55,651 bases of DNA, from the NCBI GenBank assembly GCA_003604975.1, contig QZIR01000002.1, forward strand, positions 1-55,651. Direction: 5' to 3'. The notes beneath the pieces were generated by a model, which was given only the letters and a program-made list of their open reading frames with translations, searched no databases and was not told where the DNA came from. Below, one piece after another: positions 5,141-36,552 of this stretch (position 1 is the stretch's first letter; each line of letters starts with the position of its first letter). Both the position numbers and the translations under genes were made by a program. The stretch comes from Desulforudis sp. (GTDB taxonomy: Bacteria > Bacillota > Desulfotomaculia > Desulfotomaculales > Desulforudaceae).

Positions 5141-5964
5141 TGGCCATTGGGTTTCGACCGTACTTCCCTAAGAATTCTGTTTATTTCGTTCATCCCGCGT
5201 CCTTGTCGATCAATCAACTCCTTCCTTCGTATCCGATTATGGATTGATAGGTAGCATTCAGCATAGAACTTCTTGATTTCTTCCGAATAAGATTCGCGAT
5301 AACCATTATCAATTTCTAAAAACTTCTTTGCACAAAATACGACAAGATCCGATAGCTGGACCATTGGATTCTTCTGCGAGTCAATAGGGTAACTGAACTC
5401 GACAATCCACTTGATGCGATGGGCAGCTGCCCCTTCAAATCGCCGCGCTCGAGTTATACGCTCTATGTCAGCTTGAAACTGTTCCTTCGCATCAATGATG
5501 AGCATGCCTCTAGCTGATGAGCCAAGTTGGTTTCTTACAAACCAATTGATGTAGGTGATGAGGTAATCATACGCAATATGGTATGGCGTCATGGTGTCGT
5601 AAGGGATTGCTACACAACAAGAACTGGACTTCAGCTTCGCTTTGTCGATTGCGTACAGGTGGACATCATGGCTACGCTCCTCCAGCAAGCCAAGGACACT
5701 CTTTGCCAAATTGTTACGCCTCTCTCTAGCATGGCCAGAGAATGGGCCGTCGCCATCCGGGGATAGAAGATGTTCGGCATGCAATTCAAAGTTCTGAGGT
5801 ATTGCGCCACTGAAATACTTTTCGATAATCTTAGCCATCGACTCTTGAGTGCTGTTCCAACCCTCGTCTCTAACGCTTATGCCGCCAAGAACAAAGATTG
5901 GTTGCTCGGTATTTCCAAGATCTTTGCCGGTACAACCAGCTTCATCAAGATAATAGAAATGCAT
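5116..5964 (-). CDS. DUF3800 protein inserted in the BREX operon
   Basis: 282 residues. It starts MHFYYLDEAG, the characteristic DUF3800 opening with acidic DE, and has LIIDAKEQ in the middle and VQLSDLVVFCAKK near the end. These acidic residues resemble an RNase H-like or nuclease metal site, but activity is not shown for most members. It is not one of the six standard type 3 BREX genes, yet it lies in the operon: 28 bases after pglXI and overlapping brxHII by 25 bases. That makes co-translation likely and suggests an accessory effector or regulator of this BREX. Confidence 0.8.
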   Translation of the reverse strand: MHFYYLDEAGCTGKDLGNTEQPIFVLGGISVRDEGWNSTQESMAKIIEKYFSGAIPQNFELHAEHLLSPDGDGPFSGHARERRNNLAKSVLGLLEERSHDVHLYAIDKAKLKSSSCCVAIPYDTMTPYHIAYDYLITYINWFVRNQLGSSARGMLIIDAKEQFQADIERITRARRFEGAAAHRIKWIVEFSYPIDSQKNPMVQLSDLVVFCAKKFLEIDNGYRESYSEEIKKFYAECYLSIHNRIRRKELIDRQGRGMNEINRILREVRSKPNGHWKRRYGY

Positions 5965-5992
5965 TATTTAGGATTCCCTTCATAAAAGTTAA

Positions 5993-8776
5993 TCATGAGT
6001 CCTCTCCTGAGCGAGTGAGAGCTTGGTCGTACCACATGAGGAGCTTGGGATCCTCTTGCAGTACGCTTTCAGGTATCTTACGGGCCACCATAAGAATTGT
6101 CTCATAGTCGTGTTCCTGCCATGCTTTCTTGAAACCAGTACGAACTGCTTCAAGACGAAAGACCTTCAACCGATTTTGACTGGATGTTCGATAATCCTCA
6201 AACTCCTTTAGCAAGGATCTCTCTCGCAGCTTCTCCAAATCGCCAGCCTTGGTAGGTTCTGGTACATACCATCGATCCTTGCCTTTAGCACGAAGGCTTT
6301 CGTCATCCTTGGGAAGGTTGCGAAGTTCCTTGAAGTTTGTGGATTGGTAACTATGGATCTGGGTAGGAACCTCACCTTTTCCGTCATAACGCAGGAAGTT
6401 CTGCTCAAGGAGCTCTAAGAGTTCGAGGGGCTTTTCGTGCTTTTGCCATCCGCCAATCTCCCTAAGAAATTGCGGGTGCATTTCTTGAAAAGTCTGGGGC
6501 TTCTTTTCAAGCTGCTGCTTGAGCCATTGGATAGCTGATGACTCATCGAGCACGAAAAGTTGGAGTTGCATGACTTCCCGGACATTCATACGCTTTTTAT
6601 CGTATTCGGCCGCCTGCTCGGAAAGGAAGTACATTCCATCCCTCTCCGAGAAGCGTTGGGCTAACCCTGCGTAGAAATCACTTGCAGATAATGGCACTGT
6701 CACTCCCCTTTGGACGTGAAAAGCCACCATGCGGTCGAAAAGTAGGTAGTTCTGTCGCTCGGCGATTATTTCAGCCTGGTCGTCCTTGGAGACAAAGACT
6801 GGGAGCTGCTTCAGGTGGGTGCGGATGAAGTCCCACACACCGTCCTCCGTGCCAGCTTCAAGTTTGAAGCGCTCCTCAAAGCCGCCGTTGGGCTTGTAGG
6901 CTGAGATGACAAGATCTTGTTTAACCGCCCCCGCTCTATTGACCACATTGAATGTCCCTTGCTTCTTGTCCAGAACACGGACATCTGCAACGGTGAACCC
7001 CGCTCTCCATAGAGCCTCTTGAATTGCCATCCATACACTGTTCTGCGAATTGTGGAACTCAACTGTTATCCATCGGCCAGGCTTCAGGATTCTATATGCA
7101 TGTGTAAACGCTCCAATCATCAGGCCTTGATAGAATGACAGGTCCTTATCGTGTACGTAATTCAATACGCAGTCCTGTTCTAGCTGTGTATGCACCTTTA
7201 TCCAAGCCTCGTGGAAGAAGTTAAGTTCCGCATACTGCAAAGATTCACCGAAAGGCGGATCGGTGAATATGTAGTCAATTGAGTTGTTCGGAATGTTGGT
7301 GAGGTAGGTGTGAGATTGGCAAGTAACGATAGCCTCTGCCGACTCTGTGATTAGGCAAAGGGATACAAATGACTTATTCTTCCGTTCAATCACATCGAAT
7401 GCATTCTTTTCAATCTGAAGAGAAGGAACATACAACGTGCCTGATTGCGCACCTTTACCGGTTCCGTCCCTATAACGTTCACGCCTCGATAGCAGTGTTA
7501 AGACAGATGACCAGAGAAAGAGCAATTCAGGCTTGCATCCGCGAAACTCCTCTGAGTTTATTAACTCAAATGCACGGCTCACAATTGCTAACGCCCTCTG
7601 AGTATACATCTGTGGAATCGTCGATATCCCTGAGCCAGATTTCACTTTGCGGGTCTGTCGACCATGGGGGAACTCCTCAGGTGGCACCCATGCTAACGAC
7701 TGTCGGCTAATTTTCTCAATTCTTTCCTGATCGTACATGGTCACAGGAAACCTATAAGTTCGGTTCCCCACCCGAGCAGAAACTTCGACGAGCTCGCACC
7801 TCGCTTCTTTTCGAACTTGACCATAAGCCGCATCGATGGAAGCCGTCCATACCCTATCCAGGCTATCCTTTGTCAGATCTGCGTTACAGGATGGGCAAAG
7901 AAAAGTGTTTTTTAGACTGTATGTTAGTGAATCAACAGCAAAAGTAAACAAGGGAGCCGAATATGTGCAATGAGGACAGGCGAAAACTTCTGACCACACA
8001 TAGAATTTCGCAATACCAAGGGATTGAGATTCTGGATCTCTTGTGGTGTAGCAATCTACAAATTCTGCCTTCAGTGTGTCGATAAACTTTTTAACAGAGA
8101 TGGACGAGTATTTCAAGGAGTGGAAATCATTGTATCGAGCAGCCACAAACGATGCAATTGGCGAGAGATCACAAAGAATAGCGTGTCGAATACCTATTTT
8201 CCCAATTCGCTTACCTTCCGTGTCCAGAGCAGTTCCGTCTTTCTGCACCCTCAGCTCGAGCGATTCCACTGTTGCTCTGTCCGCACACATCTGTGCAGCA
8301 ACGCCTGCCATGCCAGTTCCACAGAATCCGTCAAAGACTATATCTCCCGGCTCAGTGTAGTGAAGGATGTATCGCATTATTGCCTTATGCGGAACTTTGG
8401 TGTGGTAAGAATGTGCGCTATATATCGGGTCATTCTTTCCTTCGCTTACGTCCGCGGCAAATGGTTCTCGCTTATATGGTTCGTTTGGGTCGTATGGTTT
8501 TCCACGGAGCTTGATAAAATTCGCGATAAAGGGGTTGGGGCAAGCTGTATAGTATGGTGGGTCGGATAGGGCAAGGATGTCTTCGTCTGAGCCAATGGGG
8601 AAACCTTCAATCTTGCGGAATTCGGGATCTTTCAGCCTCTCCCGTAGCTTCTCCACAAAATATTTCCTTCGTTCCTCGTCGTTCGGGAATGTTATACCCA
8701 GACATTCAACCGGCCCCTCGGGGGTGGAAGCTGCGTGTATATCAAAATGGCCCTGGTCGGATATTTTCCTAGCCAT
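5993..8776 (-). CDS. pglXI: PglXI-type DNA methyltransferase of type 3 BREX
   Basis: 927 residues. S-adenosylmethionine-binding motif FDGFCGTGMAG near residues 148-158 and catalytic motif TDPPFGES near 505. An extra DPPYYTACPNPF lies near residue 71. A zinc-ribbon pair, CPHC and CPSC, sits near 264 and 292. This is the layout of BREX/DUF1156-like methylases, which mark host DNA so that BREX spares it. The ATG is preceded by GGAG at a good distance, and the gene begins 10 bases after brxC. The DPPF motif fits an adenine-N6 or cytosine-N4 amino-methyltransferase; the target site cannot be read from sequence. Confidence 0.88.
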   Translation of the reverse strand: MARKISDQGHFDIHAASTPEGPVECLGITFPNDEERRKYFVEKLRERLKDPEFRKIEGFPIGSDEDILALSDPPYYTACPNPFIANFIKLRGKPYDPNEPYKREPFAADVSEGKNDPIYSAHSYHTKVPHKAIMRYILHYTEPGDIVFDGFCGTGMAGVAAQMCADRATVESLELRVQKDGTALDTEGKRIGKIGIRHAILCDLSPIASFVAARYNDFHSLKYSSISVKKFIDTLKAEFVDCYTTRDPESQSLGIAKFYVWSEVFACPHCTYSAPLFTFAVDSLTYSLKNTFLCPSCNADLTKDSLDRVWTASIDAAYGQVRKEARCELVEVSARVGNRTYRFPVTMYDQERIEKISRQSLAWVPPEEFPHGRQTRKVKSGSGISTIPQMYTQRALAIVSRAFELINSEEFRGCKPELLFLWSSVLTLLSRRERYRDGTGKGAQSGTLYVPSLQIEKNAFDVIERKNKSFVSLCLITESAEAIVTCQSHTYLTNIPNNSIDYIFTDPPFGESLQYAELNFFHEAWIKVHTQLEQDCVLNYVHDKDLSFYQGLMIGAFTHAYRILKPGRWITVEFHNSQNSVWMAIQEALWRAGFTVADVRVLDKKQGTFNVVNRAGAVKQDLVISAYKPNGGFEERFKLEAGTEDGVWDFIRTHLKQLPVFVSKDDQAEIIAERQNYLLFDRMVAFHVQRGVTVPLSASDFYAGLAQRFSERDGMYFLSEQAAEYDKKRMNVREVMQLQLFVLDESSAIQWLKQQLEKKPQTFQEMHPQFLREIGGWQKHEKPLELLELLEQNFLRYDGKGEVPTQIHSYQSTNFKELRNLPKDDESLRAKGKDRWYVPEPTKAGDLEKLRERSLLKEFEDYRTSSQNRLKVFRLEAVRTGFKKAWQEHDYETILMVARKIPESVLQEDPKLLMWYDQALTRSGEDS

Positions 8777-8786
8777 AAGGTCGCTC

Positions 8787-11700
8787 CTACTCTATTACGA
8801 TCCTTACCTTGCCAGGTTCCTTGCCTTTGGTGAGCCCATCCAAGTATTTTTCAAATCGCTTCTTCATTTCCTCCGGAGTAGCCGGCGCTCCACCCTCGAT
8901 AAGCACGGAACGCAAATCCCCGGCTTTGATTGATACCTTTATGAGCCCGGAGAGGACTTCTTTCAGGGCATTGATGAAATCCTGACCCAGGTCATCCGGC
9001 AATACTTGCTCCTTGATGAAACCATCAACTAGCTTACGCTGCTTTGGTTTGAGCAGGCTGAGGTTTCCTTTGGTGGTCGGGTCTTCGAGGTTGTTCAGCA
9101 GTGTCTGGGTCCAGTTTTCTACCAACTTATCGAGTTCGTCATCCAATCCGTCAAGCATCACGGCAGCTGGTACGGTTGCCGTCTCGATGGCGGGTCTGAA
9201 GATGCAATGTGGACACTCAGGCGAAGCATCGAGTTCATGCTCAGTGAGGGCAAAACAGCTCTTTAAGGAAGCCAGCCGGTTCTGGAAGTCGGAAAGGTGC
9301 TGGAGCGGCATCAGGTCAATGGTGATGAGCTGCTGCAGGACCTTGAGTCGCTTATCCCCTGTAAGCTTCGACTTGCGTTTATCCTCGTTAACACCGAGGC
9401 GAGCCTTGGAGTGCATCGCAAGGTAAATCTGCATGTAGGCTTTCTTCAGCTCGCTGAACTTTCGCTGGGTCTGCTGCCGGAAGCTGGCATCTCCTCGCTT
9501 GACCGAGTCACCGATTTGGGCGAGGACCTCGTCTCGTGCCTCCTTCATCTTGTCTATCATGTCATGGCCAGTGGGTAAGACCGCTTCGGCATTGGAGAGA
9601 TACGAGGCCATGGAACCGAGGTCTCCCACCAGCTCCTTTAATGCCTCGATTTTCTTAAGCGCCTGCAAGCCGTTTCCGTGGCCCTGTACCTCTCGCGCGC
9701 TGTAACGAAAATTCTTCAGCTTACCGGGTGTCGTATAGGCTTGCAGTGTTTCGAGGAATGCCTTGGTCTCATCCAGTTTAGACTTTATCTTTTGTGTCTC
9801 GTCATCGGCAAGCAAGCTCCGGCCCCAGAAGAACAATCCGTTCTGCAAGCTTTGCTGCGCCAACACCAGCCGTTCTACCGTTGAAGTGACTTTCTTCTGA
9901 AGCTCATGAACCGGTTCATCCTTACTCTGAGTAACCAGTTGGGCCATGCCAGGAGTAAGACCAAGCAGTTCAAAAAGGGCTTTAAGCGCCGGAAGATTCC
10001 AGTCCTTGGGGCGCTCGACGTGTTTGAACTGCGCGAGTTCATCGACACTGGTCCCGGCCAGTTGCGGAAGACCCGTGGCGTCGAACTTGTTCCCGGGGAT
10101 CGCCAAAACCAATTCTCCGGCATAGACGAGCGCTGCTAAAACCACCACGGTCCATTCAGGTTCGAGCCTTAGCGACTGCGGAGCCAGATACTCTACGCCA
10201 AGAATATCCTGGACCAGTTCGGAACGGTTGACCACCTGGCCGTGTCCTTTCTTTTTGGCTACATTCAATATGTATTGGGCATACTTTGATTTATTCGGGT
10301 CGAGCCGCTCGCCATCGAGCAATTCTAGTGCATCGAGCACCGCAATCGCCTGCTTGGTCCGGTTCTGTCCGGCGATGACTCGCATGGCGTCCTGTGCAGC
10401 CTGAGCCTGGTTGGCTCCCGTGATGAGTACGGAGAAGAACGGGTACTCGGGTGCCTGCTCCTTAAAGTGCGTGTCGAGGCAGATTCCGGCGATGGTGTTT
10501 ACCAGGTCGCGGAAGTTGATGCGTTCATGGGGTCCGATACCGGAGAACTCCCGGATGGACTTGCCTTTAGCCCATTCAAGGAACGCCTTGGAACGACCCT
10601 GGTAGGTTACCTCAAAAGCGGTAATCATGTTCTTCTGCAACCATTGCACCAGGTCGCGGAGAAAGTTGCCAGCCTTAGCTTCATAGGTATTCTTAGCATT
10701 TCCGGACGAGGTGGATGCAAGGTCTAGGGCCGCTGCATAGTTCTCAAGCGCTGTACGGAACTCCTCGTCAGCATTCTTTAAGCGAAAAAATACCTCGTCC
10801 GGCTTCTTTTCGTCTTTGAAATGCGGCGCGTCATGAGGCTGGATGAAGTAGAGGTAGAAGTCGCGCGGCGGCACGGCGGTTGACCGCTCATTAGGCGCGC
10901 CAAAGAAGAGATATCCCTGGCGTGAGGCCTTGCGCTCGAGCCATTCAAGCTCATGCTGCCAGATTTTATAGTCGGTTACATAGGTCTGGTCGGTGCACTC
11001 CATTACTCTTTTCAAGGCCTCGTAGTAGTAGCGATCGAGTTGCGAGGAATCCAGGCTCTCGGCTCGCTTCTCGATTAAAGCGTCGAAGTCGTCTGTCTTC
11101 TTGAGGTCGAGGTAATACTGGTGGTTATCCGGATTGGAGGAGATGAACTGCCCGCTTACCGTTTTGTGTATTTCCCGCAGGACGGTCTCCACCTGGGAGA
11201 GCAGGTCGTCGGCCGGCTCGCCTCCCAACTCCTCGATTCCAGGCTGAAACAGGCAAAGGCTGTCACGCAGCTCCTCAGCCGTAGCGCCCAGGGGAACATA
11301 AATATCCCCTGTGGTAAGCCGGTTAATCGAGAGTGCATGGATAATCTGAAGAGCCATGGGCTTGTAAGGCGGTCGCGAAAAAGCCTGTTGAACACGCGAC
11401 TCGAGCACCTGGCTGCAATCAATGACCGCCTTGATTTCCGGAATAGTACGAAAAGACGGGTTCTCGCGTAAGGTAGGCCAGTAGCTGTCGTAAGCGATAA
11501 GTCCTGGGCGGTCTTCCGGGACAGCCTTTGCAAGTAACTTCTTCATGGCCACTGACAGGGTCTTGAGCACCTCACGCTTTTCTACCGCAGTGACCCGTTC
11601 GAAGGTATCAATATAATCCGGGTGCACCGGGAAAAGGCGTACGAATTCGTCCATGCGCTCGTTCATGCGACCGTAGAACATGGCGAAGGGCATCAGGTAG

Positions 11701-12515
11701 TCACGTATCTTCACCTGCTGTTCGACAGTCTTCTTGAGCAGGCGCTCCGCAACTACGAATTTAACATCCTTTCGTGCGATGAGAACCTGTTCAAAGCGGT
11801 CCTTCACCCGGCGGATGCTATCGGCTACAAAAGAGAAGCGAGGGCTGTCGAAGATGGCTTCCTGGACGCCGGCCATGAACCGGAAGCGCAGGTCCTTGCA
11901 GACCTCACCTATCTCGCGTAGGAAGTTCAGGTCAAGGATGAGCTCTTGGTCCTTGCGCGCACGCAGATAGTCGAGCAACTCGTCTACCACCAGAAGCAAG
12001 CCTAGGTCAGGATATTCCTGGTGGAAGGCGGCCATCATCTCCTCAAAGGCCTTCTTGTTGTTAGATACCTTGTCCGAGGAAGGGAACGTATAGGATACGC
12101 CGATGGCTTCTAGGTGCTCCTCCAGCTCTGCTACGAGGATGTCACGCAAGGACATTGTGGTCGAGCCGATCTCCGTCCTGACCACCTTGAAACGACCGGC
12201 GATCTTGCCGGCTGCGTCTACCACGCTTTTGTTATTGAGAAAAGATGATAACTCGCTGTTTTCCGCCAGGGATGAGATAACGGACATGAGATGGGACTTA
12301 CCGGTGCCGTAGTTACCGACAACCAGCAAGCCTTTATTGTCCATAGGCAGGTCAAACTGAAGCTGGGGGATGGCTAGACTAGTCAGCTTTTCGGCCATCT
12401 CCTCGGAGATGACGTAGGTCTGGACAAGCTGCCGAGCAGCAGCGGCCTCGTCGGCATCCCGCAGCTGAACCACCGTCTCTATGGGTTCGAATTGAATCAG
12501 TTCTCCGTATTTCAT
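8787..12515 (-). CDS. brxC: BrxC, large P-loop ATPase of BREX
   Basis: 1242 residues from the ATG at 12515, which follows a GGGGGT ribosome site; a TTG 15 bases upstream is possible. Walker [10 protein letters not shown] at residues 67-75 and Walker [13 protein letters not shown] near 187. The remainder is a long helical protein with coiled-coil stretches and a CPHC pair near the C-terminus. BrxC/PglY is the second universal BREX component and is ORC/STAND-related. The gene follows brxF by 31 bases. The length and the neighbours make the call secure. Confidence 0.92.
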
Positions 12516-12546
12516 TGCATCTACCCCCAACTGGTTTTATTCTTCT

Positions 12547-13023
12547 TCATGCTGAGACCTCAGATCTAACAACCAGTATGTCTTTAAATGGATAGCGTCT
12601 ATATTCTGAGTGGTCCGGCGTCGCATAGGCTAAATATTCGCTATCGATGGTCCCGCTCCAAGCTACGACTACGGTCTTGTCCCGAGAGAGCCCCTGCAGG
12701 AGTCGCATCGGGTCCTGCTGGAGAGAGATATCAAAGAGCATTTCGATATTGTCGAGCAGTATCACATCTACCTGGGATTCTTTTACTACATCGGACAATA
12801 AACGAGGTAGCTGGAGCGTGCGTTGGCGCTCGGTGAGCTCGAGCATGCGCCGGGAGAGCTCGAGGTTGACGTTTAGCAGTAGGGCATCCGTTCGTTCCTG
12901 AACATTTCGAAGTGTGGCAGTTTTGCCTGAGCCAGCCGGTGCTACCAGGATAATAAGACGATAGTACGATTCGGCTGCCTGGTCAATTCTTCTTATCACT
13001 TTGTCAGCAAGCGCCTCTGACAT
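12547..13023 (-). CDS. brxF: BrxF, small P-loop ATPase of type 3 BREX
   Basis: 158 residues. Walker A APAGSGKTATL near residue 29, Walker B DVILLDNIEMLF near 90. A small ATPase immediately upstream of brxC is the defining first gene of type 3 BREX, and its order relative to the next genes matches exactly. It is the first gene of the operon, with a GAGAGGG ribosome site before the ATG and a TATAAT box 110 bases upstream. It probably partners BrxC. Confidence 0.88.
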   Translation of the reverse strand: MSEALADKVIRRIDQAAESYYRLIILVAPAGSGKTATLRNVQERTDALLLNVNLELSRRMLELTERQRTLQLPRLLSDVVKESQVDVILLDNIEMLFDISLQQDPMRLLQGLSRDKTVVVAWSGTIDSEYLAYATPDHSEYRRYPFKDILVVRSEVSA

Positions 13024-14018: not shown

Positions 14019-16277
14019 CTACAACCTTATCGGCATGATCACGTAGCGCATCTTTCCCTGGCTGAACATAGCCGGCTTGAGAGGTTCCTTGAAACGTATG
14101 TCCAGAGGTTCTTTCTCAAAGATGCTCCCGACGTCGGAGAGAAAGGAGGGGTTGAACGCTATGTTCAGCGGCTGGTTATAAGCCTCCTCCTCGCTCTCCA
14201 CCGAGACGAGCACGCCGAGCTTGGCCTTGGCCCTGATCCCGCTCTCTCTGTCATCCGAGGACAGGTGTAAGTCCTGCCCCTCGACGTGTAGGGTGACGTT
14301 TCCAAAGCCCACCTTGGCCACCGCGTCGGCGAACTCCTTGGCGGATACCCGCACCCTGATGGGGTTCCCCTTGCCGTCCTCTACGAAGGATACGTACTTA
14401 GGGAACTTGCCCTCGCAGCACTTGGTGGTCAAGCGGATGCCGTCTGTGCAGATCTGGGCGACGTTGTGGTCCCCATCGTAGAGGACCCGGGCCGGACCCG
14501 CCGCTTTCAGCTTGAGGATCTCCCGCACGACCTTGGCACAGAGGAGTATCTCCACCTCCTCGGTGCCCCGCCATCCCGCCTCGTAGACGGCCATGCGGTA
14601 GCTGTCCGTAGCCGCCATGTTGCCGTCTTTGTAGCTGAGCAGGAGCGAGCACAGCGCGGGCCTCTTTTCGTCCTTGCTGCTCGCCACGGACACCCTCTTC
14701 ATGGTCTCGCGGAGCTCCTCGAAGTCGTGCTCCGCTACGAAGCTGAAGGAAAAAGAGGGCATCTGCGGGAAGTCCTCGAGCGGCTGGCTCCGCACCTGCA
14801 GTTCCACGTCGAAGTCCGTGAACGTGATGTCCTCGGACCTCTCGGCCTTGCTGATCCGGATGCTGTCGCCGAGCCTCTTGAGGAAGCCCTTGAGCTCCCT
14901 CGCGGGGGCGGCGAAGGCGAATATGCCCTCACCCATGCCTGAGATGGCCATCTCGACCGTGGTATCCAGGTCGGTGGCCCTGGCCTCGAGCATACCGGAG
15001 GAGCCCTCGAAGCGGATGGAGCCAAGAATCTCCAGATCTCCCTTGGTACCGGCGAACATGGAGACGACGTCGATCAGGTTCTTGAGCTCCTTCTTTGAGA
15101 CGTCAATATAGGAGGTGGGTCCGCCATCCTCCTCGCCTTCCGGGTCTTCCTTTCCTCCCGGCTCGATCTCGCAAGGGGGATAATCTTCGCCAGATACCTC
15201 CTCCTCGCCCGCAACCGGCTCTCCATCCTCTTCGGCCTCGGGGGGCGCGTAGTCGGTTGCGGGAGGGGTTTCCTCCCGAGTCTCGGGACATTCGTCCTCA
15301 GATGTGTTAGGGATACCGCCTCTCACCTCCCCCGTTGGCTCTTCCGCGCGGGCTCCGGGGTCCTCCTTTACGGAGATGCGCACCAGGTCCTGGATCATCT
15401 TGCCCGAGGCGTCCAAGGCCCTGTCCATGCAGGCCAGGATGGACTTGCCGTCCTGTTCCCAGAGGGCCAGGTACCTCGCCCCTCCCGGCTCGATCCCGAG
15501 CCATTTCGCCACCACATAGGCGGTGGTGGCTGCTTCTGCCTCCCTCGTTTCGCGCCCGATATCCCTGTGGTTATGGGCGAGGATGTTGTGGGCGATCTCG
15601 TGCAGGAGCACCTCCACCTTGGTGGGGGCGTCCAGGTCCTCGCGGCAGACGATCTTCTCGTAGTCGGTATATCCGAGGGCGCTGCCCTCTATCTCCGCGA
15701 CCTCCACGAGGAATCTCACCGTATCCGCGAGCTTCTTCACCAGCGGGACCAGCTCCTCCGCGTCGCCTTGCGCGGCTATGGCCCACTCCAGGGTGAGGTA
15801 GCCGTCTTTGAGCGGCTCGCCCGTCTCTCTGTCGGCCATGACCTGCGTCTGGGAGACGTCGAACACCCACACGGGGTCGAAGAAGGTGCGGCTGACCGCG
15901 ACCTCTTCTGTGAGCGGCTCTCCCGAATCGGGGTCGTAGAGGATCTCCCCTGTCTCGGGGTCCTTCGCCGGGACCACCTGCAGGTGCTTTTTCTGCTTGG
16001 GAGCGAGCACCCAGAATGCCTCGGAACCCTTCTTCACGATCCGGTTCAGGCTGTTCCAGGTCTTGGTACCCGCGAACCTGGTGGGCACTATTCCCTGCTC
16101 TTTGGCTTGGTACATGAGCCAGACCCGGTTCTGGAAGCTGTACTGGTGGAAGCGTGAGCAGAAGTCCAGGTATTCCCGGACGCGCTCATCCTTCACGGCC
16201 TCGTCAGCCTCCTCGGCGAGCTGCTGTATCGCTTCCGCGATCAGCCATCTCACCTCGTTGCCATCGTGCTTTGCCAT
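14019..16277 (-). CDS. ArdC-like antirestriction/metallopeptidase domain fused to a DNA polymerase III beta clamp
   Basis: 752 residues from the ATG at 16277, preceded by AAGGAGG. Residues 1 to about 300 look like plasmid ArdC-type proteins: an N-terminal ssDNA-binding-like part (YSFQNRVWLMYQAKEQG, then FAGTKTWNSLNRIVKKG) and a zinc metallopeptidase motif HEIAH near 226, with a candidate third ligand in AEAATTAYVV. Residues 305-388 are an acidic, Pro-rich linker. Residues 390-752 are a full-length DnaN sliding clamp, with ATDSYRMA in the second domain and the typical end YVIMPIRL. A linker rich in Glu/Asp/Pro argues for a true fusion rather than a missed stop. It may load or protect plasmid DNA entering as single strands and recruit polymerase. 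I know of no described protein of this architecture. Confidence 0.85.
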   Translation of the reverse strand: MAKHDGNEVRWLIAEAIQQLAEEADEAVKDERVREYLDFCSRFHQYSFQNRVWLMYQAKEQGIVPTRFAGTKTWNSLNRIVKKGSEAFWVLAPKQKKHLQVVPAKDPETGEILYDPDSGEPLTEEVAVSRTFFDPVWVFDVSQTQVMADRETGEPLKDGYLTLEWAIAAQGDAEELVPLVKKLADTVRFLVEVAEIEGSALGYTDYEKIVCREDLDAPTKVEVLLHEIAHNILAHNHRDIGRETREAEAATTAYVVAKWLGIEPGGARYLALWEQDGKSILACMDRALDASGKMIQDLVRISVKEDPGARAEEPTGEVRGGIPNTSEDECPETREETPPATDYAPPEAEEDGEPVAGEEEVSGEDYPPCEIEPGGKEDPEGEEDGGPTSYIDVSKKELKNLIDVVSMFAGTKGDLEILGSIRFEGSSGMLEARATDLDTTVEMAISGMGEGIFAFAAPARELKGFLKRLGDSIRISKAERSEDITFTDFDVELQVRSQPLEDFPQMPSFSFSFVAEHDFEELRETMKRVSVASSKDEKRPALCSLLLSYKDGNMAATDSYRMAVYEAGWRGTEEVEILLCAKVVREILKLKAAGPARVLYDGDHNVAQICTDGIRLTTKCCEGKFPKYVSFVEDGKGNPIRVRVSAKEFADAVAKVGFGNVTLHVEGQDLHLSSDDRESGIRAKAKLGVLVSVESEEEAYNQPLNIAFNPSFLSDVGSIFEKEPLDIRFKEPLKPAMFSQGKMRYVIMPIRL

Positions 16278-16403
16278 GCCTACCTCCTTACATGTAAGGA
16301 GGTGCACCGATGGGCCGCGGGGTATCCCCGGGACCGCCGGCACACCTCGTTCTGTGGGGCCGGCGGCCCCTTTCCTCTCGCTATCGACACTATGGAGTTA
16401 TCA
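16278..16403 (-). promoter_or_regulatory. Structured leader of the ArdC-clamp gene; Shine-Dalgarno inside a palindrome
   Basis: 16282-16303 is a perfect 22-bp palindrome (ACCTCCTTAC/GTAAGGAGGT) whose 3' arm on the minus strand is the ribosome site of the ArdC-clamp gene, so folding would hide it. Upstream lie CGGGGATACCCCG and an 8-bp stem CCGCCGGC/GCCGGCGG (16334-16366) that encloses CCCACAGAACGAGG. Still further upstream is the box ACCTTGATAACTCCATAG (16388-16404), also found near 17970 and 19262. Confidence 0.5.
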
Positions 16404-16412
16404 AGGTCCGAT

Positions 16413-16880: not shown

Positions 16881-17207
16881 CTATGCGTACCAAGGGAGCT
16901 CTTTTTTGGCCTCAGAGAGCGGCTTCTCAACCCAGTAGAGATCTCTCTCTATACCCAGGCCTAGGACCTCGGTGCTCTCCATCTCCGTAAGGGATGTGTA
17001 TCCCAGCTCATCGCAGGGCGGTCCGGTGATGGAAGCGAAACCGAAGAACACCCGATCCTCGGAGTGATAGGAGATCGCGAAGAACGTCCAGCTGGACATG
17101 GGGTGGAAGTATTTCGCTACCACCACCGGGTCCTCTGACTCCTCCTGATCACCCAAGGCGCGGAAGCGGGATAGGAGCTCAGCCGTGAGGAGTTTCAATT
17201 GGACCAC
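16881..17207 (-). CDS. DUF2958-like protein
   Basis: 108 residues from the GTG at 17207, which overlaps the end of the preceding gene by 13 bases and follows AGAGGGGA. The text matches my memory of DUF2958, a plasmid and ICE family: LLTAELLSRF at the start, VVAKYFHPMSSWTFFAISYH, then DELGYTSLTEMES and GIERDLYW near the end. Family function is unknown; it commonly sits with antirestriction and ArdC-type genes on mobile elements, as here. Confidence 0.75.
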   Translation of the reverse strand: MVQLKLLTAELLSRFRALGDQEESEDPVVVAKYFHPMSSWTFFAISYHSEDRVFFGFASITGPPCDELGYTSLTEMESTEVLGLGIERDLYWVEKPLSEAKKELPWYA

Positions 17208-17503
17208 TCCCCTCTTGTGAGCCCTCCCAGGTGGAGGCGGCCCTCTGAGGGGCTGCACTCCCCACGGCCGGCAGAGAGCCCGAATATACCGGGCTCATCA
17301 AGGTCCAGTTCCTGAGCAAACCTCGCCAGGCGCACCGAGAGCACCCTGCCGTCGACTCCTAAGAACCCGTCTCCGCCATCCAGCTCCATGCACCCCATCC
17401 CCGTGGCATATTCCCTCGCCTCTTCTTTTGTCTCGAATATCGCCAGCAGGACGGGAAAACCCGGTTCATCCTGCACTACCAGCGCCCATGACATCGTGGC
17501 CAT
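17195..17503 (-). CDS. Hypothetical protein, 102 residues
   Basis: Starts at the ATG at 17503, where AAAGGAGG stands 8 bases upstream; an earlier ATG lies within the ribosome site. Begins MATMSWALVVQDEPGFPVLL, followed by a short helix FETKEEAREYATGMG that looks like a small alpha/beta module. The C-terminus is Gly-rich. First gene of the 17503-16483 unit, with its own structured leader. Family not recognised. Confidence 0.65.
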   Translation of the reverse strand: MATMSWALVVQDEPGFPVLLAIFETKEEAREYATGMGCMELDGGDGFLGVDGRVLSVRLARFAQELDLDEPGIFGLSAGRGECSPSEGRLHLGGLTRGEWSN

Positions 17504-17869: not shown

Positions 17870-17990
17870 CTTCCCTCCTTTCATCTCTCGCGAGACGCGC
17901 TGGCCCGGGGGCCGGCAACATCTCTGTTCCAGCCCCGGCCCAGCCGGAGGCATAGGCGGTCAATCAAACTCTATGGACTTTTCAAGGTGC
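17870..17990 (-). promoter_or_regulatory. Structured leader 2 and upstream CTTGAAAAG box
   Basis: Minus strand: box ACCTTGAAAAGTCCATAG (17969-17987), then CCTCCGGCTGG, stem GGGGCTGG/CCGGCCCC (17908-17936) around AACAGAGATGTT, a second GC hairpin, TCTCGCGAGA (17886-17895), GATGAAAGGAGG and the start. It aligns block by block with 17504-17595. Confidence 0.5.
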
Positions 17991-18620: not shown

Positions 18621-18775
18621 CGGTCAGCCCGAGATCTCTCTATTCCTTTCTCAATGTGCTATATAAGCCGCATGCGGCCTATCTTTTGGGGGTGGGCGCA
18701 AAAAGAGCCAGTCTCTCCGCGCCCGTTTGGCCTTCTAGCTTCTTCCGTATAGGCGGCCGCGCAGCTCCCCAGGGC

Positions 18776-19027: not shown

Positions 19028-19277
19028 TTTTTAGTCCTCCTTCTCGCTCTCTTTAAGTGAGGAACGCCAGCCCGGGCGGACCGGCGTATCCAGGGTGCCG
19101 GTCCGAGCGGACCTTCGGGGTGTTCTCTGTGGGGGACCTCGCATAGCCACCGTCGGCCACTGGGCGAACCTGGCAGCTCGCACCTCACGCTAGCCGGCGC
19201 GTGGCCGAGGAATCTTTATCCCGGCCCAGCCCAGCTGGGAGGTGCCCGAAGGCCAAAACCCTATGTTCTTTTCAAGG
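19028..19277 (-). promoter_or_regulatory. Structured leader 4 and upstream CTTGAAAAG box
   Basis: The box ACCTTGAAAAGAACATAG (about 19259-19276) is followed by GC-rich hairpin text including CCCACAGAGAACACCCC (about 19128-19142) and a perfect 8-bp stem GGACCGGC/GCCGGTCC at 19078-19104, then GAGAAGGAGG and the start at 19027. Confidence 0.45.
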
Positions 19278-19279
19278 TG

Positions 19280-19908: not shown

Positions 19909-20463
19909 TCAATAGGAGGAGGAGACGTCCACTACCCTTCTGCTGCCATCCTCCTCGGAGACGATTAAGTAAAAGGACCGCTCGATCTCGTAGCCGTGCC
20001 CCAGGCTGGGGTCGGAGTAGCTCTCCAGCGCGCTGAGGTGCGCCTTCCATACCCCGCCTGCGGCCGAGACCCCCAGGCAGGCAACCTCCACCTCCTGGGC
20101 CTTGGCGTGATCGAGGAAGGTCTTGGTGTTTATGAGGTAGTCGTCCACCTCTCTCCAGTCCACCTGGCCATCCAAATAACCCTTCACGAAGGAGAGATAA
20201 TCGCTTCCGGTCACGGGCTCCAGCGAAGAGGTCCAGAGCTCTGTGCCCTGCTCCGTTGCGTAGAATTTTTTGAGCCACTCCGTGCAGAACTCGGAGATAT
20301 CGCCTTCTTCCTGCGCGCCCGGTGCGGCGCCTCCGCCCATGCCCTCCCCTGGGGGCGTCCCCGTTTGCGACCCGCTAAATAGCGGAACGGATGCGAGGAT
20401 GCATACCAGAAGCACGAAGAGGCTGAGGCCGAGATAGAGTCTGCCCTCGCCTGCCCTGCTCAT
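19909..20463 (-). CDS. Second single-TM T4SS protein, VirB8-like
   Basis: 184 residues. The ATG at 20463 overlaps the stop of the NlpC/P60 gene (ATGA), so the two are translationally coupled. N-terminal membrane segment LYLGLSLFVLLVCILASVPL, Gly-rich linker, then a domain with ISEFCTEWLKKFYATEQGTE and FVKGYLDGQVDW, resembling the NTF2-like fold of VirB8/TcpC in predicted helices and strands. Either a second VirB8-like subunit or another channel component. Moderate certainty. Confidence 0.6.
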   Translation of the reverse strand: MSRAGEGRLYLGLSLFVLLVCILASVPLFSGSQTGTPPGEGMGGGAAPGAQEEGDISEFCTEWLKKFYATEQGTELWTSSLEPVTGSDYLSFVKGYLDGQVDWREVDDYLINTKTFLDHAKAQEVEVACLGVSAAGGVWKAHLSALESYSDPSLGHGYEIERSFYLIVSEEDGSRRVVDVSSSY

Positions 20464-21530
20464 AGGCCACCACCCCCGCCGGCCAAGCAGTCCAGGTCCC
20501 CGTATCCCCACAGGTCGGCGCGGTCGGAAAGACGCGACTCCATGACGGGAAGGCCGGTTCTCGGGGCATGGATATATACGCCATCGCCTACGTAGATGCC
20601 GACATGGGCCGGCGGCATCTGGGACCCCACCTGCGCCAGGCCCCCGACGAAAAAGACCACATCCCCGGGCTCTATGCCCCTCTGGGCGGCGTCGAAATAG
20701 CTCACCGCCCTCACGGCACCGCCGCGCTTTGAGAAGATGGCCCACTGCACCTGCGAGGGGGCCGGGAGCACCGAGGTCCCGTCCGCCGCGATGATGCCCG
20801 CCTGGTGGGTCACGTATTGCACCAGCGTCGAGCAGTTATGCGCCGCGGGGTCCAATGGATAGGCGGTGTCCTCGAAAAGGTAGGGCTTGCCGAGCTCCCC
20901 CTTAGCGATGGCGATGACCCGCTCCCGCAAGTCCCCTATCTCGCCCAGGGGAGGGGCGCAAAAAGCGTAGATCTCCTTCATGATATTCTCCACCCCGCTT
21001 GCCCAGGCGGGGTTCACCTCCCCGAAATGCTCCTCCCCCCAGGTCCAGGTGGCGCTGAGCTCGCGCAGGGTCTTCACCCCGATCCCCTCCATGTGTTTCT
21101 CGCGCACGGTGCGGGCGGCGTCTTCGTAGGAGTCCTCCACCTTCGCGTAGGTGACGTAGTCGTTCCCGTCCCCGCCGGGTGAGTTGAGGCCGAAGGGATT
21201 GTTGTTATTGGTGCCGGAGGAGCCCGGCGCGGTGGCGAAGTGCGTCTCGTGTCCCGCCATCGCGACGAGGAGAGCGGGATTTAGATCGTAGGTCTCGCAG
21301 GCCGCCACCAGGGCCCCCATGGTGCCGACCATGGGGGATGCGGGGCAGCGGTTGAGCATGAACTCATCTAAGCGCTCCGGGTCGAAACGCACGAAGCAGA
21401 GGCTTCCGTCCCAGCCCCTGGCCGCCCCGGATGAGGAGGTGCTCCCGCCGGCCTCGGTTATAGCCCCGCCCGCAAGGAGCGGGATCCCGACCACGCACGC
21501 AACCAGAACGGCCGCAATTCCCCGCAGCAT
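20460..21530 (-). CDS. Secreted bifunctional peptidoglycan hydrolase (glucosaminidase/lysozyme-like plus NlpC/P60)
   Basis: 356 residues with a signal peptide (MLRGIAAVLVACVVGIPLLA). Residues 70-170 hold a glycosidase-like domain: ALLVAMAGHETHFATA contains the catalytic-type Glu, and NNNNPFGLNSPGG is typical of glucosaminidase/lysozyme domains. The C-terminal NlpC/P60 domain has HNCSTLVQYV with the catalytic Cys (about 232) and PAHVGIYVGDG with the His (about 311). It is the VirB1/Orf14-type wall hydrolase that opens peptidoglycan for a T4SS. It overlaps the VirB4 stop and the following gene start. Confidence 0.85.
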   Translation of the reverse strand: MLRGIAAVLVACVVGIPLLAGGAITEAGGSTSSSGAARGWDGSLCFVRFDPERLDEFMLNRCPASPMVGTMGALVAACETYDLNPALLVAMAGHETHFATAPGSSGTNNNNPFGLNSPGGDGNDYVTYAKVEDSYEDAARTVREKHMEGIGVKTLRELSATWTWGEEHFGEVNPAWASGVENIMKEIYAFCAPPLGEIGDLRERVIAIAKGELGKPYLFEDTAYPLDPAAHNCSTLVQYVTHQAGIIAADGTSVLPAPSQVQWAIFSKRGGAVRAVSYFDAAQRGIEPGDVVFFVGGLAQVGSQMPPAHVGIYVGDGVYIHAPRTGLPVMESRLSDRADLWGYGDLDCLAGGGGGL

Positions 21531-21531
21531 C

Positions 21532-24147
21532 TCAGACCGCCTCCCCTAAGCTGGTCGAAAAGAGGCGCGTCTCCTCGCGCGAGGCTACCACGCGGGTGAG
21601 CGCGCGCTGCACGCCGGCATGGATGATGCACTCCCCTTTGGTCAGGGTGGCCATCATCTCCTGCTCGCGCTCGGTCAAGGTGATGGCTTTGCTCACGTAG
21701 TTGTCTATGAGCCCCTTGTCCATGCCGAAGAGGCATTTAATGGCGCAGTTGGAGACGATGGCGCGCGACTTGTCGTTCGCGAACAGCTGGTCCAGCTGCT
21801 GGTCAATGATGACGAAGGAGACCCCGTACTTGCGGCCCCTGCGGGCCAGGTTCTCGAAGGCCTCGGCGCACTCGTAATCCCTGAGCAGCCACGAGGCCTC
21901 GTCCACCTGGAATATCCGCATGGTGCGGTCGTCTCTGATCTTGCGCCAGAACCAGCCGTCGATGACGGCGATGGCCAGGCCTCGGTGCTCCCGCTTGATG
22001 CCGGAGAGGTCGAAGGCCACGAAGGGGGAGGAGAGGTCCACGTTGGTCTCGCGGTCGAAAAGCCCTCTCAGTGTCCCCTCTGTCCAGGGGCGCAGCGCAT
22101 GGTGGATGTCCTGCAGCCCCATCTCAGCGGCCACCTCTTTTAAGTCCGCGAGCAAGGGTCTTTCGTACCTGCGGTAGACCTCGTATAGAAGGTCCTCCGC
22201 CTCGAGCGGCCGGTAGTCCATCTTGGCGTCGGCGAGGATGAGCTTTAGAAATATCATGTTCTCGCGCACCAGGTTGTCCGTGCCCGAGAGGGACGAGTCC
22301 TCGAGGCGAAAGCTGCGGTCGAGCGGGTTTATGGAGTGGCCTGAGCGCGGCTCGAAGGCGATGTACTGGCCCCCCAGGGCCTCGCACATGGCCCGGTACT
22401 CGCGCTCGGGGTCGATGCACACCACGCTCACCCCCCGGGCGAGCTCGCGGGTGAGGAGGGCCTTGGCGAAAAAACTCTTCCCCTGGCCCGACTGGCCCAC
22501 GATGGCCATGGAGTGGTTGGGCATCTGGGGCGCAAAGCGGTCCAGCATGACCAAGGAGGACCCGTCCTCGGAGGTCCCATAGAGCACCCCTCCCCCCGAG
22601 CTCATGTCCGTGCTCGAGAGGGGGAAGGAGGCGCCGATGAGCGAAGAGGTGAACCCCCGCGTAAACGGCAGGGCGATGAGCCCCAGTGGGACATAGGATA
22701 AGAACGCGTCTTTTGCGAGGTGCCTGGGGACGTCTACGGTGATCTCCCTCGCGGCCATCTTGGATACCACCATCTCGGTCTTTTCCTCAAGCTCCTCAGT
22801 GGAATAGGCCTTGACCGCGAGCAGGCACAGGTAGTCGAAGAGCTTCTCCTCGCCGGAGGCGAAGGAGCGCATGAGCTTTTCGGTCTTCTCCTTCTTCACC
22901 TCGGTGAGCTGGTCGGTGGGCATGTTGCCGAGCTTGTCCGCCATGGTGGCCCCATGCATCTTGCGCAGGCTCGCGGCGATGTAGCGCATGTCTGAGCCCA
23001 TGTCGCGCGGGCTGATGTGGATGCTTATATCCATGTCGTCAGCCAGATCGTTTAGGTCCTGCACCCAGCCCGACCACAGGCAGGCGGGCCACTCCATGAT
23101 CGCGAGTATCCTTATGTAGAGCTTCCCCACCCTGATGTGGCCCGGGGCGAGCTCGACCGACGGGGGGGCCACGACCTCGGCTAAGTTGCCCTCCCCTATC
23201 CCCTGGGCCAGAAAGGGCCGGATGTCCTGCCGGCGGCTGAGGTCCCCTTCCAGGTCCGGGTTCAGCACCTCGTAGAGGAGCTGGGCGATCCCCGCTCGGT
23301 CCAGGGTCTCCGCCTCGATGCCGCACCTTTTGAGCCCGCTCCTTATGATCTCCTCCCGCATCTTGAGCTGCTCCCGCGCGTCCTTTATCTTGACCTCCTT
23401 CCCCCTCTGGGAGAGAAGGCCCTTAGCGGTATCTAGATAGTCGGTGGCGCGGTACTTGCGGGCGGGGAGCGAGTAGATGTTATAGGAGATGACGAGGAAG
23501 AACTCCTTCTGGTGGACGTTTCCCTCCTCCGCCAGGCCCCTCAAGAACTCTATATACTGCCTCTGCGCCTTCTCGTATCCCGCCCCTGCGTGGGGGCGCT
23601 CGAGCCCTGAGATGATGTCCTCGCGGGTGATCTTGCGGGAGCGCATGAACACCTGGACCGGAAAGCCGCGGGAGAGGGAGTGGCACAGGCCGCGGAAGGC
23701 CTTCTCCGTGGACCTCTTCTCCTGCTCAGACAGGAGCCCGAAGTTGAGCGAGGAGACTCTTAAGATCTTTATCGCCGTGCCGCCCGCGAGCTCCACCATG
23801 TCGGGCTCGAGGCGCCCGATGGGAAGGAGGTCCCGGGTGGAGGGAGCCTTCCTCCCTGAGCCGGAGGAAAATTGGCGGAAGCTGCGCGGGGAGATGCGGA
23901 AGCAGGCCCAGTTGAAGAGCATCCTGTCCAGCCCCTGGCCGTATTTCTCGTACCTCGCCAGCATCCAGGCGCAGGCCACCAGGGGGATGGCCAAAAACAG
24001 CCGCAGCCCCGCGGATGCCTGCGATTTCAGAAGCAGAAACGCCGGGTAGCAGAGCAGGAGGAAATAGGAGAAGGTCTTGAGCGAGAAGTCCCTCCATATA
24101 TGGGGGGAGTATTTGAAATCGGGTGGAACCGCGTAGTCCTCTTCCAT
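21532..24147 (-). CDS. virB4: VirB4-family T4SS ATPase with PrgI-like membrane N-terminus
   Basis: 871 residues. Two membrane segments near residues 28-65 (TFSYFLLLCYPAFLLL, LRLFLAIPLVACAWML) form a PrgI/VirB3-like N-terminus fused to VirB4. Walker A GQSGQGKSFFAKAL near 550 and Walker B FQVDEASWLL near 744, with RRGRKYGVSFVIIDQQ after it. Powers pilus assembly and substrate transfer at the membrane. The gene follows the VirB6-like gene by 22 bases and overlaps the hydrolase start (TGAGATG). The T4SS core gene here is secure. Confidence 0.9.
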   Translation of the reverse strand: MEEDYAVPPDFKYSPHIWRDFSLKTFSYFLLLCYPAFLLLKSQASAGLRLFLAIPLVACAWMLARYEKYGQGLDRMLFNWACFRISPRSFRQFSSGSGRKAPSTRDLLPIGRLEPDMVELAGGTAIKILRVSSLNFGLLSEQEKRSTEKAFRGLCHSLSRGFPVQVFMRSRKITREDIISGLERPHAGAGYEKAQRQYIEFLRGLAEEGNVHQKEFFLVISYNIYSLPARKYRATDYLDTAKGLLSQRGKEVKIKDAREQLKMREEIIRSGLKRCGIEAETLDRAGIAQLLYEVLNPDLEGDLSRRQDIRPFLAQGIGEGNLAEVVAPPSVELAPGHIRVGKLYIRILAIMEWPACLWSGWVQDLNDLADDMDISIHISPRDMGSDMRYIAASLRKMHGATMADKLGNMPTDQLTEVKKEKTEKLMRSFASGEEKLFDYLCLLAVKAYSTEELEEKTEMVVSKMAAREITVDVPRHLAKDAFLSYVPLGLIALPFTRGFTSSLIGASFPLSSTDMSSGGGVLYGTSEDGSSLVMLDRFAPQMPNHSMAIVGQSGQGKSFFAKALLTRELARGVSVVCIDPEREYRAMCEALGGQYIAFEPRSGHSINPLDRSFRLEDSSLSGTDNLVRENMIFLKLILADAKMDYRPLEAEDLLYEVYRRYERPLLADLKEVAAEMGLQDIHHALRPWTEGTLRGLFDRETNVDLSSPFVAFDLSGIKREHRGLAIAVIDGWFWRKIRDDRTMRIFQVDEASWLLRDYECAEAFENLARRGRKYGVSFVIIDQQLDQLFANDKSRAIVSNCAIKCLFGMDKGLIDNYVSKAITLTEREQEMMATLTKGECIIHAGVQRALTRVVASREETRLFSTSLGEAV

Positions 24148-25478: not shown

Positions 25479-25835
25479 CTATGAGATGAGGCCCTTGGCG
25501 AAGTTGAGCACGCCTAGGGCGAAGGTCCCGATCAGGAAGCCGGCGATGGCCACGCCCAGTCCCAGCCGGGCCTGGTGGTGTTTCTCCGCGTTGCCGCGCG
25601 CGAACATATAGATGATCGCTCCCACGGCGAGCGCGGCGCCGGCCACGAAGTAGAGGGGCTTCTGCACTTCCTTGAAGATGTTCTCCGCCGTCCTCTCCAT
25701 GTTGATGGGATCGCCATCTCCCTGGGCTAGAGCGACGTTTGCGCTTGCCAACTGCGCAACGAAGAGGATGAAGAAGGTGGCCGCGCAGAACAGGCAGAGG
25801 ATCATCCTCTGTCTCTTAAGGTCTCTTAGCAACAT
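25479..25835 (-). CDS. VirB2/TrbC-like small membrane protein (pilin-like)
   Basis: 118 residues. The ATG at 25835 follows GGAGGTG. Signal peptide ILCLFCAATFFILFVAQLASANVALA, then about 20 polar residues and two membrane segments, PLYFVAGAALAVGAIIYMF and LGLGVAIAGFLIGTFALGVL, separated by a short basic loop. That is the two-helix hairpin layout of VirB2-type pilins. First T4SS gene downstream of four tiny genes. Confidence 0.7.
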   Translation of the reverse strand: MLLRDLKRQRMILCLFCAATFFILFVAQLASANVALAQGDGDPINMERTAENIFKEVQKPLYFVAGAALAVGAIIYMFARGNAEKHHQARLGLGVAIAGFLIGTFALGVLNFAKGLIS

Positions 25836-26887: not shown

Positions 26888-27250
26888 TCAGATGCTCTTC
26901 AGCTTCAGCTTCAGGTAATCGTCCAGGCCGAAGGCCACCAGCTCCGCGATCACCTTGTTATACCCGTATCTCGGAACCCCCATCTTCTCCTTGATCTGGC
27001 GGTCCGCCTCCTTGAGCTTATCTTCTATCTCCCGCGGTATCCGCGCCGAGATCATGACCATGCTGTAGCGGTCCCACTTCATTTCCGGAAGGACCTTTTC
27101 CTCCTTTGCTGTCGGATTCTTGGGCTTGCTCGCTTCCCCTTCCGTCTTCTTGGGCTCCTTCGCTGGGATGCGTTCCTCTGCAGCTTCTTCCCGCGTCGGG
27201 AACCCACCTGGCATATATCCAAGTCCCTTTTCATCAGCGGCGCTCGGCAT
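26888..27250 (-). CDS. Probable ParB-type partner of ParA (RHH-like)
   Basis: 120 residues. The ATG at 27250 follows AAGGAGG and overlaps the 3' end of parA by 17 bases, the usual parA-parB layout. A polar N-terminal half is followed by MVMISARIPREIEDKLKEAD and VPRYGYNKVIAELVAFGLDD, which fits a ribbon-helix-helix fold: a beta strand and two helices. Small RHH partners are the centromere-binding proteins of type Ib partition systems. It probably binds the AT-rich repeats upstream of parA. Confidence 0.7.
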   Translation of the reverse strand: MPSAADEKGLGYMPGGFPTREEAAEERIPAKEPKKTEGEASKPKNPTAKEEKVLPEMKWDRYSMVMISARIPREIEDKLKEADRQIKEKMGVPRYGYNKVIAELVAFGLDDYLKLKLKSI

Positions 27251-28040
27251 CCTTCATCACCTCCTTCGCCACCTTCTGATATTGCATACTCCCCTCATGG
27301 GTCGCTCTCCAAAGGACGGCCGGGATCCCCTCGGCGTTCGAGTTCTTGAAGACCGAGAGGTTCTTTATAAACGGCTCGTATACCTTGTAGGTCTTCTGTC
27401 CTTTCAGAAACTCGATGGCCTTGGCGTGATCTCCCAGCCTCATATCATACTTAACGACTATGAACCCCAAGATGTTCTGTTGGGTTTTCGATGCCTTCTC
27501 CACCTTGAATATCCAGGAGAGGAGCCTCTTGGTGGCGTAAATGGTGAGATATTCCGGCTCTACCGGTATGACCAGGTAGTCCGAAGCCGTGATCACGTTC
27601 TCCGCCATTGTGGACCTACCGGGCGGTGAATCCAGTATCACGTAGTCGAAGAAGCCCATCTCCCCTACCTGCTTTATGATCTTCTTTAAGTTCTGGTATC
27701 TCTCCGGTGCACGCTGCGCGCCCAGGCTCTCTATGGTGTCTCCTAAATTATCTGAGCCGGCGATGATATATAGAGGTAAGTCCCTCAGTTTCTCGCTCCA
27801 CCATGCGTTGGTGGGGGTCCAACGATATATCGCCTCCTTTACCTCCCTCTTCCCTACGAGAAGTTCTGCAAGTCCTGCTTTTGTGCTCTCCATTCTCAGG
27901 GCGTTCGTTAAAGATATCTGGGGGTCGCAGTCTATCAGGAGGGTGCTCTTCCCCGCCTTGGCCAGGGCCGCTCCGATGTTTATAGAAGTGGTGGTCTTCG
28001 CCACCCCTCCCTTCTCGTTGGTGAATGCCAGTACCTTCAA
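27234..28040 (-). CDS. parA: ParA-family partition ATPase
   Basis: 268 residues. The start is a TTG at 28040, after GGGGAGGT. Deviant Walker A NEKGGVAKTTTSINIG near residues 8-23, LLIDCDPQISLT near 36, and VILDSPPG near 127. Drives segregation of plasmid copies on the nucleoid. Followed, with overlap, by the small RHH-like partner and then a strong terminator. No extended N-terminal HTH is present, so autoregulation likely falls to the partner. Confidence 0.9.
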   Translation of the reverse strand: MKVLAFTNEKGGVAKTTTSINIGAALAKAGKSTLLIDCDPQISLTNALRMESTKAGLAELLVGKREVKEAIYRWTPTNAWWSEKLRDLPLYIIAGSDNLGDTIESLGAQRAPERYQNLKKIIKQVGEMGFFDYVILDSPPGRSTMAENVITASDYLVIPVEPEYLTIYATKRLLSWIFKVEKASKTQQNILGFIVVKYDMRLGDHAKAIEFLKGQKTYKVYEPFIKNLSVFKNSNAEGIPAVLWRATHEGSMQYQKVAKEVMKDAERR

Positions 28041-28065: not shown

Positions 28066-28232
28066 TGCAGCTGCCTATATATCTTAATATAATGCTAGCT
28101 GTATAGCAAGCCTTATATATATCCATCTTTATATATTTCTTATATGCTATATATAATGCTAGCCTTATATTATGCTATATTACTATCCTCATATATAGCT
28201 ATATTGCTGGCTAGCCATATATCTATCCTCCT
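28066..28232. repeat. AT-rich repeat region upstream of parA; candidate centromere
   Basis: In a GC-rich element this stretch is almost pure A/T, broken by recurring TGCTAGC, TATGCTA and AGCTATA cores: AATGCTAGCTGTATAGCAAG, TATGCTATATATAATGCTAG, TTATGCTATATTAC, TATAGCTATATTGC and GGCTAGCC. Spacings are about 20-25 bases. The position just before parA is where RHH-type partition proteins bind. Could also be the parA operator or an AT-rich unwinding element. Confidence 0.5.
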
Positions 28233-36540: not shown

Positions 36541-36552
36541 GGGGTGATAAGA

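Follow-up and report, generated by a model that had tools for sequence, protein, structure and literature searches.

Within the window, by which we mean the whole 55,651-nucleotide stretch analyzed here (one whole contig of a 75-contig assembly from a Desulforudis sp.), a single minus-strand open reading frame of 752 amino acids occupies positions 14019–16277, running from an ATG at 16277 to a stop at 14019 with no internal stop. Its stop-free translation, Pfam matches and a search of its own genome identify it as an ArdC–zincin–β clamp fusion gene, whose product comprises, in order, an ArdC N-terminal domain, a zincin carrying a HEIAH motif, an acidic linker and a three-domain β clamp ending in MPIRL. 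The preliminary description had placed an ArdC-type N terminus and an entire β clamp in one frame at exactly these coordinates, and translation, Pfam and predicted models bear this out. A strong Shine–Dalgarno sequence, AAGGAGG, lies 5′ of the ATG. The same description had named a stop or start hidden between the two halves as grounds for abandoning the fusion, and at the junction we find no stop, nor any start that a suitably placed ribosome-binding site would make usable. Between codons 300 and 410, the only in-frame ATG, GTG or TTG codons are GTG318, which lacks a ribosome-binding site at the proper distance, and ATG407, which sits within the first clamp domain, so that neither offers an obvious start for a free clamp. 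The GC content at third codon positions (GC3) is 0.859 in the ArdC half and 0.858 in the clamp half, equal to that of the neighboring type IV secretion system (T4SS) genes (0.84–0.88), with the BREX genes on the left side at 0.47–0.66. The frame is thus neither a chance nor an accidental open frame. That an error of assembly or sequencing has merged two genes ranks as the least likely explanation and is very improbable: the assembly is a draft of 75 contigs with no second sequence of the gene, whereas the junction lacks any such stop or start, the acidic linker is clean and in frame, and codon use is uniform.

The region upstream of the fusion gene contains two candidate control elements. A perfect 22-nt palindrome, ACCTCCTTACATGTAAGGAGGT, at 16282–16303 overlaps the ribosome-binding site, and the leader RNA folds with a z-score of −3.05; the palindrome could serve as an operator or as a hairpin that hides the ribosome-binding site. 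Farther upstream, on the minus strand at 16390–16408, is a copy of a CACCTTGAAAANNNCATAG-like motif that recurs at 17971–17989, 18640–18658 and 19261–19279, 5′ of several genes of the module. The window holds five matches to this motif against 0.3 expected, the genome otherwise holding just one near match, and the motif is probably a shared promoter or operator.

The fusion gene is carried by a conjugation-type mobile element. Its neighbors on the same strand include an upstream DUF2958 protein (16881–17258; PF11171, E 1.3e-10), small zinc-ribbon and unknown proteins, a cell-wall hydrolase of the transfer module with NlpC/P60 and glucosaminidase domains found by Pfam (20460–21530), a VirB4/PrgI-type T4SS ATPase (21532–24147; PF19044, PF12846 and PF12666), a TrbC/VirB2-type pilin (25479–25835; PF04956, E 6e-7) and a ParA-type partition ATPase (27234–28040; PF13614, E 2e-35). 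The T4SS module, to which the GC3 of the fusion gene conforms, is in keeping with a function during DNA entry. The nearest plasmid VirB4 relatives are only about 23–27% identical, several of them named CD1110-family, and we found no related transfer module in the phylum at E 1e-90 and no PF03432 relaxase in the genome, so that any capacity of the element for self-transfer is putative. The contig with the genome's only strong match to a type IV coupling protein (C20) was considered as part of the element and rejected, since it seems unlike the rest of it. Because the element proteins tested contain no consensus clamp-binding motif and the ORFs examined include no DNA polymerase or clamp loader, the partners of the clamp would be host proteins. 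Base composition and shared protein families point neither clearly for nor against mis-binning of the contig. To the left of the fusion gene lies a minus-strand BREX cluster of type III make-up (283–13023), with BrxF, BrxC, PglXI, a DUF3800-like protein, a BrxHI/HII helicase and PglZ, whose GC3 is below that of the adjoining transfer genes. Directly upstream of parA, AT-rich imperfect direct and inverted repeats (28075–28222) possibly mark a partition or replication site, and a restriction-endonuclease-like REase-ARP gene (PF22558; 28582–29736, plus strand) separates the partition gene from an HTH_36 replication-like gene.

The N-terminal ssDNA-binding-like domain spans residues 13–147 (15837–16241, minus strand). 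The Pfam ArdcN family (PF08401) matches residues 13–96 with an E-value of 1.4e-8 and 35.4 bits against a cut-off of 22.6, and a PHROGs anti-restriction family matches residues 35–151. The zincin metallopeptidase domain follows at residues 172–305 (15363–15764, minus strand), where structure matches to IrrE/PprI and ArdC proteins coincide with a HEIAH zinc-binding and catalytic motif at residues 226–230 (15588–15602, minus strand) that is conserved in 67–68 of 68 alignment rows. The zinc ligands His226, His230 and, as the third, Glu246 are all present, as is the catalytic Glu227, and Phe43, Tyr46, Ser47, Asn50, Trp74, Arg79, Gly84, Asp140, Gln143 and Thr144 are likewise retained from the conserved set of ArdC. 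A model of this half, built from 68 sequences and predicted apart from the clamp half, has a mean pLDDT of 88.2. Its best match among solved structures is R388 ArdC (6sna, Z 10.4, aligned from residue 49; 6i89, Z 8.8), with the IrrE/PprI zincins next. The relative placement of the two domains in the model differs from that in 6sna, with an rmsd of 15.3 over 193 aligned residues. Structure comparison of the model also places residues 67–147 close to the ssDNA-contacting BHD domain of Rad4/XPC. By analogy with these proteins, the ArdC half would be expected to bind ssDNA.

One substitution sets the zincin apart. Residue 250 is alanine in the fusion and glutamate in 66 of the 68 ArdC alignment rows. 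We take this site to be a second-shell residue, by analogy with the ExxxD motif of thermolysin, and peptidase activity may therefore be altered or weakened, though not necessarily lost, in the fusion protein. Only one other ArdC homolog among the 68 (L230:7953-8909) has alanine at this position.

Joining the two halves is an acidic linker of about 77 residues rich in proline, glycine and glutamate (residues 312–388; 15114–15344, minus strand), with a net charge of −25 from its composition. It is predicted to be disordered, the model pLDDT falling below 60 from about residue 311. Such a tether raises the possibility, which we consider unlikely though the foremost of the alternatives, that the protein is a self-processed precursor: once the protein had entered or been made, the zincin would cut the exposed linker and release a plasmid-specific clamp, dimerizing only with itself, for replication of the element, in the manner of the free clamps carried on Streptomyces and Rubrobacter plasmids. 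The length and predicted disorder of the linker and the existence of those free clamps agree with such a scheme, and autoproteolytic release of the ArdC-N domain by the peptidase has been proposed for the class in the text of Iyer et al. 2017 (PMC5512222). The same text relates, however, that pSa ArdC, a relative of R388 ArdC, and RP4 TraC1 remain full length on transfer, and the Ala250 substitution may weaken the very peptidase that would have to make the cut.

The C-terminal half is a complete three-domain β sliding clamp (residues 389–752; 14022–15113, minus strand). The N-terminal, central and C-terminal DNA_pol3_beta families of Pfam cover residues 393–751 with E-values of 7.7e-8, 2.6e-13 and 2.8e-8, each above its curated cut-off, and the phage clamp family phrog_947 matches residues 391–752 with 144 bits. 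The NCBI DnaN equivalog TIGR00663 matches over its full length with 110.5 bits, under its cut-off of 137.65. An AF2 model of this half, built from 18 sequences, has a pLDDT of 88.8 and superposes on E. coli β with a Z of 37.8 and an rmsd of 1.8 Å over 351 residues, so that prediction of the halves apart confirms both the ArdC and the clamp fold. The C-terminal YVIMPIRL (residues 745–752; 14022–14045, minus strand) forms a piece of the partner-binding cleft. At the positions that we take, from E. coli β, to line this cleft, alignment with enterobacterial DnaN pairs Leu155, Thr172, Arg176, Pro242, Val360, Met362, Pro363 and Arg365 with identical residues in the fusion (Leu542, Thr557, Arg561, Pro626, Val746, Met748, Pro749 and Arg751), the departures being tyrosine for His175 and methionine for Leu177. 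The partner-contact residues, whose survival the preliminary description had asked to be checked, are thus retained. The fused clamp shares with the DnaN proteins of E. coli (2pol) and T. maritima (1vpk) the three-domain fold (Z 37 to both), the cleft and the MPxRL end; in addition to its score under the DnaN cut-off, it differs from them in being carried as a C-terminal domain, in its shortened dimer helix and in its reversed interface charges.

Two features set the dimer interface of this clamp apart. The domain-III helix and loop at about residues 646–664 (14286–14342, minus strand) is 19 residues long, compared with 23–29 in the 61 other clamps (4–10 residues shorter), and the missing stretch includes the equivalents of E. 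coli Ile272 and Leu273. Double alanine mutation of these two residues renders E. coli β monomeric (PMC3022782, PMC4041429). The charge of four domain-I interface positions sums to −4 in the fused clamp versus −2 to +4 in the others, and that of the domain-III segment is +1, the segment being negative in all other clamps tested. From sequence, the shortened helix is predicted to weaken the usual interface, and the reversed charges could preserve self-pairing yet shut out the host clamp. With the dimer segment shortened and the interface charges reversed, ring formation is uncertain: a working ring is not to be assumed, and the clamp might fail to load in ring form. The charge reversal on both sides, self-complementary as it is, would suit a precursor that releases a self-pairing clamp, whereas the absence of the Ile272 and Leu273 equivalents tells against that scheme.

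A clamp that never encircles DNA could also act as a monomeric docking or decoy module, its cleft sequestering or titrating host clamp-binding proteins or the clamp loader and so transiently checking host replication or repair at entry. The intact cleft and the loss of the segment whose double alanine mutation yields monomers (PMC4041429, PMC3022782) are in keeping with this idea, as is the report that a clamp which is monomeric but keeps a working cleft seems to act as a dominant negative in vivo (PMC3022782). We nevertheless think it decidedly unlikely, given that the charges are reversed in a compensating way, which speaks for some self-pairing, and that the entire three-domain arc is preserved, beyond what a cleft alone needs. 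A further reading, in which a clamp without the usual ring closure is a tethered docking module that the ArdC part holds on incoming ssDNA, where it recruits (or sequesters) the clamp-binding proteins of the recipient at entry, also strikes us as unlikely, if worth keeping in mind.

A tree of 62 clamps places the fused one with stand-alone plasmid clamps of the Actinomycetota Streptomyces (pRVR1), Euzebya and Rubrobacter, the enclosing group receiving support of 97/91; long branches in the tree mean that this grouping must be treated with care. Origin by duplication of the host DnaN was rejected as a sister relation (p-AU 0.009), and the evidence against placing the fused clamp inside the chromosomal DnaNs at large falls short of a firm rejection (p-AU 0.07). 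The free plasmid clamps differ from the fused one in standing alone and in having a dimer helix of normal length. We found no ArdC-N gene on the plasmids that bear them, so that a gene-pair precursor of the fusion is not in sight.

As far as could be searched, the fusion is unreported. The preliminary description knew of no protein of this make-up, and none turned up in the collections that we searched or in the literature, where we found no account of a plasmid-borne or fused clamp. Neither the 72,556 plasmids nor the 50,697 phage records included one in which the two halves were matched over 80% of the query, and in about 700 genomes (relatives, the whole class and a sampling across the phylum) ArdC and DnaN matches were always separate. 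Exact-peptide scans of genome and viral contigs returned no close relatives, and scans with degenerate ArdC patterns, covering 80 and 18 viral loci and 80 genome loci, gave no other clamp in the same frame when checked with HMMs. Besides the window's own gene, the sole case of a nearby clamp was an unfused one about 4 kb from an ArdC gene (locus L079). Two long ArdC frames (G196, 843 aa; G109, 1090 aa) proved to be ordinary ICE-type polyvalent proteins that lack a clamp. With no second fusion in the plasmid, phage and genome scans, the protein is a singleton of one 75-contig draft genome. The concern that the fusion might be unique to one assembly, with homologs encoded as two genes, is accordingly borne out as to the single assembly, but the halves do not form a conserved gene pair elsewhere. 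That only one copy is known would be expected of a one-off gene fusion without a selected joint function. We regard such an accident as improbable, however, in that both halves retain their key residues at 20–33% identity to any relative, their GC3 is equal, and their folds are intact despite the long branch.

A precedent for this protein is the polyvalent class of Iyer et al. 2017, whose members, in the text of that survey, carry an ArdC-N domain, then a metallopeptidase, then variable domains of unrelated activity, occur on conjugative elements, and are proposed, in the ArdC class, to shield ssDNA as it enters and to give replication an early start (PMC5512222). The fusion has the same order and setting and, like these proteins, combines at least two domains of unlike activity in a single polypeptide. 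It adds a clamp, and the main text of the survey, which covers 131 domains, contains none of the words "clamp", "DnaN" or "processivity" (PMC5512222). The fusion is therefore a new architecture within a known class. R388 and pSa ArdC (6sna, 6i89; PMC7213743) share with it the ssDNA-binding-like N-terminal domain followed by a zincin, as well as the setting on a conjugative element, but R388 ArdC stops after the peptidase, whereas the fusion continues with a 77-residue linker and a full clamp and has Ala250 in place of a near-invariant glutamate. R388 ArdC binds and protects ssDNA and aids its entry with its peptidase activity dispensable, and it is needed as a recipient-expressed protein, donor delivery not being required (PMC7213743), so that in that system the protein need neither be delivered nor act as a protease.

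We tentatively favor, at somewhat less than an even chance, the reading that a conjugative element here encodes a protein of the polyvalent type, whose ArdC part sits on ssDNA as it enters and whose tethered clamp docks host proteins, favoring synthesis of the second strand. One polypeptide carries both folds and an intact cleft, its clamp belongs to a plasmid-type lineage, and its gene lies in a T4SS setting. The ArdC part would bind ssDNA entering the recipient and shield it from restriction, while the flexible acidic tether would hold the plasmid-lineage clamp beside it. Because the cleft is intact, we propose that it would dock the host replicative polymerase, clamp-loader δ, repair polymerase and ligase next to the entering DNA, and that these docked proteins would favor its conversion to double strand. 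The functional part of the preliminary description, that the protein clears host factors and starts complementary-strand synthesis, is likewise inferential. Counting against the favored reading are the singleton status of the fusion, the altered dimer interface, the Ala250 substitution and the recipient-made R388 ArdC with its dispensable peptidase. Little is understood of how a plasmid that has entered as a single strand gathers the replication proteins of its host, and the physical link between ArdC and clamp opens to direct test the idea that protection is coupled to second-strand synthesis. Should the clamp prove able to function with no closed ring, this would be an unusual use of the clamp fold.

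Two further features of the window concern other genes. An ALIL frameshift pseudoknot (RF01497; 43364–43480, plus strand), typical of IS3-family elements, lies at the start of a transposase gene, and a surface-protein-like ORF at 36544–40254 has short stretches in common with a 5762-aa open frame elsewhere (G000:C40:26348-28288).
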